Of a stretch of 64,000 nucleotides of DNA, positions 5,381-56,256 are shown piece by piece. Source of the stretch: a virus. Below the pieces are notes generated by a model, which had not been told where the DNA came from, did no database searches, and worked only from the letters and a program-made list of their open reading frames with translations. A program made the translations under genes and the position numbers. The stretch lies in IMG/VR virus record IMGVR_UViG_3300042564_001032, positions 1 to 64,000 of that record. One strand, given 5' to 3'. The number at the start of each line of letters is the position of its first letter. Within the stretch, counting starts at the first letter, position 1.

Positions 5381-7834
5381 ATGAGCGAGAATAAACAAAT
5401 ACTTAATTTTCACCTTGGTAATTCCAAGCTGAAGAGAGATGAAAAAGAAGGCCTAAAGATATCTAAGTTTTTGCAACAGGCGTATAATAGTGGATACTTC
5501 ACTAGGAGAAACAAGAAGTTCGAGAAGAACAGAAAGTTTTCTAGAGGTAGACAGCCAATGGCAGAGTTCTTGGATTTATTGAATGTTGATGGTAAAGAAG
5601 CGTTTGTAAATCTAGATATGAAAGCTCCTGCTATCGCTCCAAAGTTCATGCAGGTTATTATAGGCGGCTTCATGAAAAGAGAAGAAAAGGTTAGAGCATC
5701 TGCTGTAGACCCAATATCTGTAGATAGAAAGGTTTATGATAAAGAGAATGCCGAGTTCAGAATGAACCATGGAGATACTGTAAAACAGATAGAAGAACAG
5801 GTTGGTCTTAAATTGATGCCAGATGGCGGCTTTACTCCAGAAGATTACGAAGAATTAGAATTATATTTTGGTCTAGAATATCAGTTACCTGAAGAGATTT
5901 TATTTGAAAAAGGCTGTGATTATGTATTTCATGACAATGGATGGCCTGTAATTAAAAGAAAGATTTTAGAAGATATATCCGAAACAGGCGTTGGAGCTAC
6001 AAAAGTTAGCGTAGCAAATACTGGTAAAATTAACATTAGAAGAGTAGTTCCTGAGAACCTATTTTACGGGTTTTCTCAATATGATGACTTTAGAGATGTA
6101 TCTTTTATAGGTGAAATTATATCTATGAAGATTGTGGATATTAGAAATAATTACCCAAACATCACAGAAGAAAAGATATATGAAATTGCTAAAAACTCTA
6201 AGCAACACACACAGACGGTTAAATGGGATGACAGGTTTAGATACTCTATTGACAGACCATATGATGATTGGACAGTAGATGTAATAGACTACGAAATCAA
6301 GACAATCGATACAATGATTTACCAATTTAAAACTAATAAGTATGGTAATCTAATTGTAGAGAAAAAAGAGAAAGCGCCACAAAGACTAGGAGATAATAAA
6401 GAATTATTGACTAGAGACATGTATGTTATATATCGTGGTGTATATATTTTGAACACAGATATAATGCTAGAATGGGGTGTAGCTAAGAATATGATTAAGC
6501 CTTCTGTAGCAAAAGAAATGGCAGACGCTTATTTCAGCTATAGCTTATATATGTTCGAGAACCTTGATTTAGAGAATATGGCTATTCCTGAAAGAATGGA
6601 AACATCTATCAGGCAGATGACATTGGCTCACTTAAAAATTCAGCAGTTAATAGCAAAGCTCAGGCCATCTGGCTTAATCATAGATATTGATTCATTGTCT
6701 GATATTAATATTGGTCAAGGTAAAGCATTGAATCCTTTAGAGCTTCAGAAAGTTTACGACCAAACAGGTAATATTTACTATAAGAGAAGAACAGAGGACG
6801 GGGAAGGAACAAATGGCCTTCCAATTCAAGAAGCCCCAAATAGCGGAAGTATAGGTCAGATTCAAGAATTGATTTTAGTATACAACCATTATCTAGACAG
6901 GCTTCGTGATGAAATAGGGGTTAACGAATACAGAGAAGGATCTGGTGTTAATCCTAAATTAGGACTAGGTGTTCAACAGGCTCAAATACAGGCATCTAAC
7001 AACGCAACAGACTTCTTGTATGATGCATATTTAAATATATATCAGCAAACAGCACTTAAGATTTCTTTACTATTATACGATTCAGTATTATATGGAGGAG
7101 AGCAGTATAGAAACTATTTAAACCCAAATAATGTAGAAGGAAAGTCATTTGATATTAAAATCGAAGTTCTTCCTGACGACAAAGAAAAGATGTTTATGGA
7201 GCAAATGATTCAGACCGCATTATCTGCTGGTATGATTGAATTTGAAGATGCATTTAGAATCAAGAGCATAAAGAATACCAAGTTGGCTGAAATGTACCTT
7301 GCAAAAGCTAAAAAGAAGAAGCAGAAAGAAGAAGCGCAAAAAGCTCAAATGAATTCAGAAATGAATGCCCAGTCTCAACAGCAGTCTATCCAAATGAAGG
7401 CTCAAATGGATGCTCAACTAGAGCAAATACAAAGCCAGGGAAAACTAGCTATTGTAAATACAGAAATGACATTGAAGAAGGATTTGTTAGAACAAGAGTT
7501 TGTTCAGTTAGCTCTTTTAAAGTCTTTTGAACTAGGTAGACCATTAAGCTCTCAGTTAGACCAAGTCGTTAACTCATATTTTGCCAAAAAGCAGCAGGAG
7601 ATGATGCAGGAAGCTATGGCTCAACAAATGATGGCACAGCAGCAGCAAGACCCTCAAGCTCAAGAAGAACAAGCTATGAGTGATGCTATTAGCCAAAAAG
7701 TTCAAGAAGAGTCTGGCCAAATAGCTAAACAAGAAGCTCAAGAAAGTGGCCCTTCCGTAACGGAAGAAGAAATGATGAATGAAGAAGAGATGCCACAAAC
7801 AGAAGAAGGCATGCAACAGCCTGAAGCTGAATAA
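5381..7834 (+). CDS. Portal protein
   Basis: 817 residues, long like the portals of Bacteroidota podovirus-type phages. It sits directly after the large terminase and before scaffold and capsid, the canonical portal position. The protein is mixed alpha/beta for residues 1-620. A C-terminal third is rich in Lys, Gln, Met and Glu and predicted to form coiled coil, ending in a strongly acidic tail; glutamine-rich stretches lie at about 665-690 and 735-765. As dodecameric portal it would form the packaging and ejection channel. Assignment rests on context, size and overall resemblance. Confidence 0.85.
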   Translation: MSENKQILNFHLGNSKLKRDEKEGLKISKFLQQAYNSGYFTRRNKKFEKNRKFSRGRQPMAEFLDLLNVDGKEAFVNLDMKAPAIAPKFMQVIIGGFMKREEKVRASAVDPISVDRKVYDKENAEFRMNHGDTVKQIEEQVGLKLMPDGGFTPEDYEELELYFGLEYQLPEEILFEKGCDYVFHDNGWPVIKRKILEDISETGVGATKVSVANTGKINIRRVVPENLFYGFSQYDDFRDVSFIGEIISMKIVDIRNNYPNITEEKIYEIAKNSKQHTQTVKWDDRFRYSIDRPYDDWTVDVIDYEIKTIDTMIYQFKTNKYGNLIVEKKEKAPQRLGDNKELLTRDMYVIYRGVYILNTDIMLEWGVAKNMIKPSVAKEMADAYFSYSLYMFENLDLENMAIPERMETSIRQMTLAHLKIQQLIAKLRPSGLIIDIDSLSDINIGQGKALNPLELQKVYDQTGNIYYKRRTEDGEGTNGLPIQEAPNSGSIGQIQELILVYNHYLDRLRDEIGVNEYREGSGVNPKLGLGVQQAQIQASNNATDFLYDAYLNIYQQTALKISLLLYDSVLYGGEQYRNYLNPNNVEGKSFDIKIEVLPDDKEKMFMEQMIQTALSAGMIEFEDAFRIKSIKNTKLAEMYLAKAKKKKQKEEAQKAQMNSEMNAQSQQQSIQMKAQMDAQLEQIQSQGKLAIVNTEMTLKKDLLEQEFVQLALLKSFELGRPLSSQLDQVVNSYFAKKQQEMMQEAMAQQMMAQQQQDPQAQEEQAMSDAISQKVQEESGQIAKQEAQESGPSVTEEEMMNEEEMPQTEEGMQQPEAE

Positions 7835-52472: not shown

Positions 52473-52493
52473 TTTATTGTTTATTTAGTTCGT

Positions 52494-52575
52494 AGTCAGT
52501 GTAGGATTCGAACCTACATTTAGGAGACTGAGGTTTTTAATCTCAGTTTTCGTCTACCATAACGACTTCCTGACT
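52494..52575 (-). tRNA. tRNA candidate, class-II-like, anticodon uncertain
   Basis: On the minus strand six of seven acceptor pairs (AGTCAGG with ACTGACT), a D arm with GGTAGAC as in Leu tRNAs, a T arm GTAGG-TTCGAAT-CCTAC, and an anticodon arm CTGAG...CTCAG. The anticodon loop is nine bases (ATTAAAAAC), which gives TAA (Leu) or AAA depending on alignment. The variable region is about ten bases without a clear stem. Length 82. It looks like an altered Leu-type tRNA. Confidence 0.55.
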
Positions 52576-52730
52576 ATATCGGTTGTTCTGGCACAACCAT
52601 AAGCCCCTTTGTTTTCTTTATGCGTATGAACAAATGCTGCTACTATAACACACTTGGCAAGAAAACTATGTCTAACCCAACCGCAAGGCATCGGTTCTAG
52701 GGCTTTCTAAACTATAGTAGCATTTATTAC
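52576..52730 (-). ncRNA. Structured non-coding segment upstream of the tRNA candidate
   Basis: Nested inverted repeats without an open frame: TGCTACTATA (52638-52647) with TATAGTAGCA (52713-52722), ten pairs; AACCG with CGGTT inside; AAGCCC (52601-52606) with GGGCTT (52700-52705); and a hairpin GGTTGT-ACAACC (52581-52598). A -7-type box, TAGTTTTG on minus (52737-52744), lies just upstream. It would be co-transcribed with the tRNA candidate. Confidence 0.5.
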
Positions 52731-52898: not shown

Positions 52899-53234
52899 AA
52901 CTATATGTATATCAGGTTCTATATCCAAGTAAAAAGTTACCTGAACAGTCCTCCACTTTATTTCAACTCATGGATTCATAGCTCTACTACACACCCGCAT
53001 ATCTAACGGCACATTAGTTTTTTACTTTGTTTACTTGTCGGCAGTTGTCAACCTGTAAGACATGGCTACCACTTTGTACTAATATGTATATCTCCGCATG
53101 TGCAAAAAGTTAAGCACCATAGGTGCTACGAAAAACACACACGTTAAGTGTAAAGAACAGCAAATTTTTATTTGAACTATCGTTGTATAGAACAAGGCTA
53201 AAATGTGTTAAAACCTTACCGAATGGGGCAGGAA
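52899..53234. other. 336-base stretch without a gene
   Basis: I see no convincing coding frame. It holds a short hairpin (AGCACC-ATA-GGTGCT, 53113-53127) and a second copy of CTCTACTAC (52982-52990) that also occurs in the small-RNA hairpin loop at 53317-53325. It may be a long 5' leader or decayed RNA genes. Confidence 0.5.
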
Positions 53235-53340
53235 AGAAAAAGCCCACCAAAGTAGAGATTTGATGGGCATGATTCAAAAAGGTGTTAGCCTTCTAAAAGC
53301 ACACCCGATAACGTATCTCTACTACCTTATCGGATTTGCA
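53235..53340 (-). ncRNA. Small structured RNA with loop-loop complementarity and own terminator
   Basis: On the minus strand a 5' hairpin CCGATAA...TTATCGG (53305-53333) has a loop containing GTAGAGA. The 3' hairpin GCCCATCAAA...TTTGGTGGGC (53242-53268) is followed by a T run and is a terminator; its seven-base loop TCTCTAC is the exact complement. Including flanks, nine bases match (53251-53259 with 53315-53323). A full promoter lies just upstream. Either a kissing-loop RNA or an attenuator that can switch. Confidence 0.75.
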
Positions 53341-53343
53341 GTA

Positions 53344-53374
53344 CAAAAATACAAATGTTTTTCATACCGCCAAA
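53344..53374 (-). promoter_or_regulatory. Full Bacteroidota promoter for the small RNA, TTTG-N19-TATTTTTG
   Basis: On the minus strand TTTG (53371-53374) and TATTTTTG (53344-53351) are 19 bases apart, matching the complete consensus. The RNA would start near 53338. Confidence 0.8.
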
Positions 53375-55248: not shown

Positions 55249-56256
55249 TTATATATTTTGTTTAGTAAATAAATCTATTGCTTTGAATATATTGTATGCT
55301 ACCTGTGGCACAATAGCATTTCCGTAAGCCTTTATTGATTCCATTCTCCACTTAGAAAAGGTAATAGAGTCCAATTCTCTGGGAAGCCCATCATCTCCTC
55401 CACAAATAGGGGGTTTAGTTGGGAAGTCTTGGAACTTGGCTCGTATATTTTCGCTATCTCGTCCGTTAAGTTGAATTTGCCTCTGTCTCTCGATGCGTTG
55501 CCTCTCGATTCTTGCGCCTTCGGTGTCGGTAACATACCTAGCTTCGCCATTTGCTTCAATGGGTTCTGCAAGTTCACTCCCTTTGCTTTGTGACGAGCCT
55601 TTGCTGCCAGGAATGTCTCCTCCTTGCGAGCCGTGTTCCAATCGTATGCCGAAGGTGTCGGGAGTAATGATACTACCTGAGTGGCTAGGTTTGGCATCGT
55701 AGTTCCGTTGGGATACTTCTCCATCCTGTCCTTGAACTTGCCTAGATCCTGTACCTCTTCTCTTGTCGTTGGAGTAAGCAACAAACCAAACTCTGTCCCT
55801 TCTGTGCGGGGCGTTGACGCTTGCAGCTGGAATAATAAACGGCTGTACTTCATATCCTTGGCTTTCCAAGTCAGAGCACACCTCATGGAAGACCAGTCCT
55901 CCATTCCAACTAACAAGCCCACGAACGTTTTCGCCCACGACGAATGTTGGCTGGACCTCTTTAATAACTCGTAGCATTTCAGGAAAGAGGTGTCTTTCAT
56001 CGGCCTTACCAAGACGCTTTCCTGCGACTGAGTATGGTTGACAGGGGAACCCTCCTGTAAGTACATCAATTGTTCCTCTGTGAATAGAGAAATCTGTTTC
56101 GGTAATGTCATTGTATGATATTGATTTTGGAAAATGATATTTTAATACTCGCTGACCAAACGGATTCCATTCGCAATGGAATATATTATCCCATCCCATC
56201 CATTGTGCAGCTACATCAAATCCACCTATGCCAGAAAACAAACTAGCGTGATTCAT
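55249..56256 (-). CDS. dcm: DNA C5-cytosine methyltransferase
   Basis: 335 residues with all main C5-methyltransferase motifs: motif I LFSGIGGFD (6-14), motif IV GGFPCQPYSVAGK with catalytic Cys72, motif VI ENV (109-111), motif VIII APHRRDRVWFV (149-159) and motif X YGNAIVPQVAYNIF near the C-terminus. A long variable region (about 165-295) should set the recognised sequence. It methylates cytosine in phage DNA, probably to escape host restriction. Most of its length is also open in a second frame encoding another conserved-looking protein. Confidence 0.92.
   Translation of the reverse strand: MNHASLFSGIGGFDVAAQWMGWDNIFHCEWNPFGQRVLKYHFPKSISYNDITETDFSIHRGTIDVLTGGFPCQPYSVAGKRLGKADERHLFPEMLRVIKEVQPTFVVGENVRGLVSWNGGLVFHEVCSDLESQGYEVQPFIIPAASVNAPHRRDRVWFVAYSNDKRRGTGSRQVQGQDGEVSQRNYDAKPSHSGSIITPDTFGIRLEHGSQGGDIPGSKGSSQSKGSELAEPIEANGEARYVTDTEGARIERQRIERQRQIQLNGRDSENIRAKFQDFPTKPPICGGDDGLPRELDSITFSKWRMESIKAYGNAIVPQVAYNIFKAIDLFTKQNI
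55332..56111 (-). CDS. Overlapping protein-like frame inside the methyltransferase gene
   Basis: 259 residues in the +1 frame of the methyltransferase gene, same strand, fully contained in it (residues 49-308 of that gene). It begins with KQISLFTEEQLMYLQEGSP, has FVGLLVGMEDWSSMRCALTW and TPTAYDW-like pieces, and ends with LNPLFVEEMMGFPENWTLL. I recall the same order of motifs in separate predicted phage proteins next to cytosine methyltransferases, so the frame is probably expressed. Function unknown. Confidence 0.55.
   Translation of the reverse strand: MTLPKQISLFTEEQLMYLQEGSPVNHTQSQESVLVRPMKDTSFLKCYELLKRSSQHSSWAKTFVGLLVGMEDWSSMRCALTWKAKDMKYSRLLFQLQASTPRTEGTEFGLLLTPTTREEVQDLGKFKDRMEKYPNGTTMPNLATQVVSLLPTPSAYDWNTARKEETFLAAKARHKAKGVNLQNPLKQMAKLGMLPTPKAQESRGNASRDRGKFNLTDEIAKIYEPSSKTSQLNPLFVEEMMGFPENWTLLPFLSGEWNQ

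Follow-up and report, generated by a model that had tools for sequence, protein, structure and literature searches.

A predicted phage RNA family with covarying and rapidly changing complementary hairpin loops

Results

The locus and its surroundings

The window, by which we mean the whole 64,000-nt stretch of DNA analysed, belongs to a 67,787-base IMG/VR virus record, and the RNA locus described here (the predicted kissing RNA) occupies positions 53235–53374 on its minus strand. Its neighbours on that strand are genes for an Erf annealing protein, an exonuclease and a primase/helicase, and the plus strand carries genes for a terminase, a portal and a virion structural protein. By terminase, the nearest isolated phages (Cellulophaga phi18:3, the Flavobacterium elemo phages and a Caudoviricetes record) are only ~28–32% identical, which places the phage in an uncultured group; the promoter type together with these phage relatives points to a member of the Bacteroidetes as the host.

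A preliminary description of this DNA had claimed the promoter, giving no strand, as well as the 5’ hairpin and the terminator hairpin with their respective loops. Each of these was recovered on the minus strand (Table 1), and so was the claimed perfect complementarity of the loops reaching nine bases: GUAGAGA and UCUCUAC are exact 7-nt complements, and the match extends to AGUAGAGAU/AUCUCUACU (9 nt). All 200 dinucleotide shuffles tried fold less well than the window RNA (z = −3.67). Bacteroidetes promoters have a −33/−7 consensus of TTTG/TANNTTTG, with start sites 4–5 nt downstream (PMC6847099), and applying this spacing gives an RNA of ~103 nt; scanning the plus strand of this locus for TTTG-TANNTTTG gave no match.

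Table 1. Positions in the window of the features at and next to the predicted kissing RNA
Feature	Position	Strand	Basis
Promoter TTTG-N19-TATTTTTG	53344–53374	minus	Sequence; Bacteroidetes primary sigma type
Predicted kissing-loop RNA, ~103 nt	53235–53339	minus	Start inferred from promoter spacing; end at T tract
Hairpin 1, apical loop GUAGAGA at 53322–53316	53303–53335	minus	Fold; two-sided changes in stem pairs
Linker hairpin AGAAGGCUAACACCUUUU, weak	53277–53294	minus	Fold
Terminator hairpin, 10 bp, apical loop UCUCUAC at 53258–53252	53242–53268	minus	Sequence and fold
Intrinsic terminator T tract TTTTTCT	53235–53241	minus	Sequence
Type I conserved noncoding region, a probable second structured RNA	52900–53234	minus	Alignment and comparison of downstream regions

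A family of related RNAs in freshwater phages

Four close loci were first obtained as homologues near relatives of Erf; a covariance model, R1, was built from five loci, and further members came from pattern scans and a second model, R2. R1 matched 24 of 50 related phage records strongly, and the collection from IMG/VR phage contigs, covering many freshwater phages of Bacteroidetes-type bacteria, comprises 40 distinct hairpin pairs, among which 28 different complementary loop words occur. By comparison of these members, both stems are conserved and a family exists. The loops of one close relative, L004, differ from those of the window at four facing positions and are still exact 7-nt complements, the rest of the hairpins being nearly unchanged, and L006, whose Erf is only 51% identical, has a third loop pair, AGGAGAG/CUCUCCU. 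The unit adjoins Erf in some phages and precedes a structural gene in others.

A strict promoter match was found at 38 of 42 unique loci and a looser one at three more (41/42 in total), with a spacer of 19 nt in 27 of the 38 strict cases. The second hairpin is followed by a T tract (at least five Ts in seven) at all 42, and the combination of a GC-rich hairpin and a T tract, as in an intrinsic terminator or an attenuator leader, is likewise found at 42/42. The linker varies between 27 and 67 nt, is never shorter than 27 nt and does not vary in multiples of three; only one member has a sense ORF of at least 12 codons from an ATG, and there is no conserved coding frame in the RNA, by which we rule out a coding explanation of the locus, in agreement with the preliminary description.

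We also screened both strands of 3.72 Mb of fetched phage DNA, blind to sequence, and required two stems of 8 bp or more whose loops complement each other, together with a T tract. The screen returned only the kissing-RNA family and two promoterless matches; such a near-exclusive outcome, together with complementarity kept by compensatory change, indicates that the arrangement in the window exceeds chance.

When searched against Rfam 15 (4227 families), neither the RNA of the window nor any other member reached a gathering threshold, and matches to trpB, BTnc005, tRNA-Sec and Hrs10 were rejected because all were below it. The trpB motif (RF04312) resembles our family in having two hairpins of which the second is a terminator, and L166 scores 35.2 bits against it; however, the gathering score is 59, the alignment falls on generic stem and T-tract positions, and there is no trpB gene. 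Among cultured phages, blastn with four member RNAs gave only short chance matches, a weak model match in Cellulophaga phage phi18:3 turned out to be an unrelated terminator without paired loops, and the structural screen of phi18:3, Flavobacterium phage elemoE 6-9C and MW202828 found nothing. A single pattern scan of bacterial genomes had no match, which is weak evidence of absence as the pattern covers just part of the family. Four weak model matches (L188–L191) were dropped because they are without hairpin 1. With no Rfam match and no description among the papers searched, the kissing RNA is an undescribed phage RNA family.

The two loops change together

At least six contiguous loop bases are complementary in 39 of the 40 distinct members, and at least seven form Watson-Crick pairs in 38. 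The preliminary description had named homologues with lost loop complementarity as what would speak against it; we looked for them, and 39 of 40 distinct members keep the complementarity. Pairing the loops across members with different words gave a median of only four contiguous pairs. Among 25 equal-length distinct members, on which the column statistics are based, all seven column pairs of the loop-loop helix have two-sided changes and 97.7% of cells are paired, with a covariation score of 1.004 compared with 0.31 in shuffles and 0.12–0.28 with the partners slid. The covariation in relatives to which the preliminary description had looked is present in every loop-loop column. All ten positions of the terminator stem pair in 100% of cases among 25 distinct members, and five of these pairs have two-sided changes.

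Shuffle tests of this kind are inflated by relatedness, which gives weight to the tree: the terminase tree of 24 phages requires no fewer than 16 changes of loop word, where 16 is the parsimony minimum on that tree only, found by a quick tree search and with some words arising twice. We are highly confident that the loops do pair and that selection maintains this pairing; the covariation fits a contact within one molecule or between molecules alike. The sole member with mismatched loops, L172 (1501–1610), has GUGAAGU/AUUCCGC, which pair at 6 of 7 positions counting G-U. Its hairpin 1 is that of L170 and its terminator resembles that of L168, which could reflect recombination, an intermediate state or a chimeric assembly.

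In one clade the complementary stretch coincides exactly with the 7-nt loop, in the other it is 9 nt and takes in the closing pair, and among members it was never found to reach more than one pair into either stem, which leaves no strand to displace the terminator stem. The preliminary description had considered that the loops might pair as an antiterminator and open the terminator, and this part of it is not supported: unlike attenuator leaders, the family has no alternative antiterminator helix, and its sequences point to a 7-bp kissing contact of the ColE1 type more than to an antiterminator switch. The idea of a new phage RNA with kissing loops is well supported as anatomy, by the promoter, the terminator and the compensatory changes seen at each of the seven loop pairs.

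The loop words are replaced rapidly

For pairs of members with at most 3 differences in 46 stem positions (mean 3.8%), the difference is 44% in the hairpin 1 loop and 41% in the terminator loop, and it is only ~59% for the most distant member pairs. L004 and L005 are ~98% identical over 9 kb, and their words are different yet still complementary; L123 and L157, at a terminase distance of 0.023 changes per site, have GGTCAAG and GTGAGAT. By these sequence comparisons the loops are replaced faster than the stems that carry them, nearly always both together, and recombination of whole cassettes may contribute to the turnover.

A conserved noncoding region downstream

In every member inspected, among them the window, L166–L187, L206, L302, L308 and others, a conserved noncoding region of ~300 nt lies 3’ of the kissing RNA, in at least five sequence types. 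The hairpin AGCACC-UAU-GGUGCU of type I (53127–53113, minus strand) becomes AGCGUC-UAU-GACGCU in L004 and L005. All 15 inspected contigs with the type II pattern carry a kissing RNA just upstream, nine of them being already known members, and downstream stems of types II and III change on both sides. No promoter was found within 120 nt past the terminator at any of the 42 unique loci. An Rfam search of the region gave no match, and identity with a group I or II intron was rejected, there being no such match at E up to 0.3–1. The stretch may belong to the same RNA as the kissing module, form an RNA of its own or act as a DNA element.

In types II and III (L181, L212, L305, L314, L340, L342, L262) we also observed two short direct repeats, 80–100 nt apart, whose sequences change together between phages, for example ATTAGTATG twice, TTGGGTAGG twice, or GGAATAG twice.

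Discussion

We propose that the promoter drives synthesis of an RNA, or 5’ leader, of ~100 nt in which the loop of hairpin 1 and the loop of the terminator would form a full 7-bp kissing helix. The contact would form inside one molecule during RNA synthesis, giving a closed 5’ module, and this module would set how often the polymerase stops at the terminator and how often it reads into the downstream structured noncoding region. To the statement as a whole, with the contact mainly within one molecule and governing termination into the downstream region, we give a probability of roughly 0.45. Since the linker is never shorter than 27 nt, closure within a molecule is geometrically possible, and readthrough is suggested by the lack of a promoter match after the terminator. 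On the other hand, termination at the T tract could be efficient, in which case the downstream region would be transcribed otherwise or not at all, and the imperfect loop pair of L172 stands against the model. A purely within-molecule contact also has no obvious need of a fast-changing word, so the turnover argues for some contact in trans.

Such a contact could take the form of loops pairing between molecules, giving head-to-tail dimers or larger assemblies in which the variable word prevents mixing with co-infecting relatives. Rapid change of the word with complementarity kept would be expected if cross-pairing of relatives were harmful, and two mutually complementary loops on the two arms of one RNA are also the arrangement of phi29 prohead RNA, a phage RNA on the ~100-nt scale (PMC7357161). 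The phi29 loops, however, form 4 bp between molecules and serve a packaging motor, while here there are 7 bp and one loop lies in an intrinsic terminator; unlike the phages with a phi29 packaging ATPase, the window encodes an ordinary, conventional large terminase (phrog_6681) and portal (phrog_6547). ROOL and GOLLD, phage noncoding RNAs of unknown function that are often near tRNAs, are homo-oligomers with covarying kissing contacts (PMC12286853), and tRNA or tRNA-like sequences lie near some kissing-RNA members too. At the same time, ROOL and GOLLD are much larger, there is no sequence or Rfam match, and their contacts do not consist of hypervariable words within the loop of a terminator. 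Since the kissing RNA looks like a leader or a terminated transcript, and since pairing within the molecule should compete strongly when both hairpins are on one short chain, we regard assembly between molecules as possible and on the unlikely side.

Seven-nucleotide apical loops paired along their full length are also the geometry of ColE1 RNA I and RNA II, whose words differ among related replicons with the pairing kept, and most kissing-RNA members share it. A role in replication or copy-number control like that of ColE1-type antisense RNAs, with the following region as an origin and the words marking compatibility groups, would suit the position of the window unit among Erf, exonuclease and primase/helicase genes, and the direct-repeat pairs of types II and III that change together between phages. 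In ColE1 both partners are transcribed from one piece of DNA, one in the sense and one in the antisense direction, which makes complementarity automatic, whereas here two separate hairpins of one predicted transcript must change together. Against such a role, the unit precedes a structural gene in other phages, the downstream region has RNA-like stems with compensatory changes, and there is no adjacent initiator gene, so that we find this role improbable. Small RNAs commonly start pairing from a loop, and one loop might instead recognise another RNA, in the phage or the host, the second serving as a built-in decoy or lock. A loop reading another phage RNA would require the target site to change alongside it; across 24 phage genomes, the phages’ own loop 7-mers occur 286 times as against 271.9 ± 26 for other phages’ words (p = 0.30). 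A trans target within the phage genome was rejected because own words are not enriched, which argues against a shared co-varying phage target, and recognition of any such RNA seems to us decidedly improbable. Finally, a mutation process at the DNA level, such as template switching, could keep the inverted words alike without selection on an RNA contact, and several adjacent bases do sometimes change at once in both loops (the window and L005 versus L004). We give this very little credence: the words sit in unrelated flanking stems 50–80 nt apart, the stems undergo ordinary compensatory changes, and the promoter and T tract are conserved throughout.

The within-molecule contact that we prefer is by itself an insufficient explanation for a 7-bp word that is strictly kept and constantly rewritten. 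From the fast turnover it would seem that each phage also needs a pairing of its own, one that does not cross-pair with relatives. We raise, as a speculation that we doubt more than we believe, that diversifying selection acts on the paired loops as a private identity word of the RNA, by which self is recognised and close relatives are not. If this were true, the word would be a kin-recognition or compatibility code in seven base pairs. The family opens a direct way to ask why a self-contact should need a sequence private to each phage, and its loop-loop contact is proved by compensatory change though its sequence outpaces the stems in replacement. Nature rarely offers more than two dozen orthogonal 7-bp kissing pairs on a single scaffold, and the series of matched and mismatched loop pairs is on hand for biophysics and RNA design.

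Other features near the kissing RNA

A C-5 cytosine methylase gene (PF00145) lies at 55249–56256 of the window on the minus strand, and a 259-aa ORF (55332–56111, minus strand) overlaps it in another frame of the same strand and matches phrog_1008 (E = 2.5e-23); one stretch may thus encode two proteins. A tRNA-like sequence with a GGTTCGAATCC arm is found at 52484–52574 (minus strand), where ARAGORN makes no call; the L004 counterpart (6155–6237) is called by ARAGORN as tRNA-Phe(aaa), and a good tRNA is present near the kissing RNA in L177 (437–510). The segment at 52727–52630 (minus strand) is near-invariant in five relatives and has GCTACTATA and TATAGTAGC at its two ends; these could close another structured RNA.
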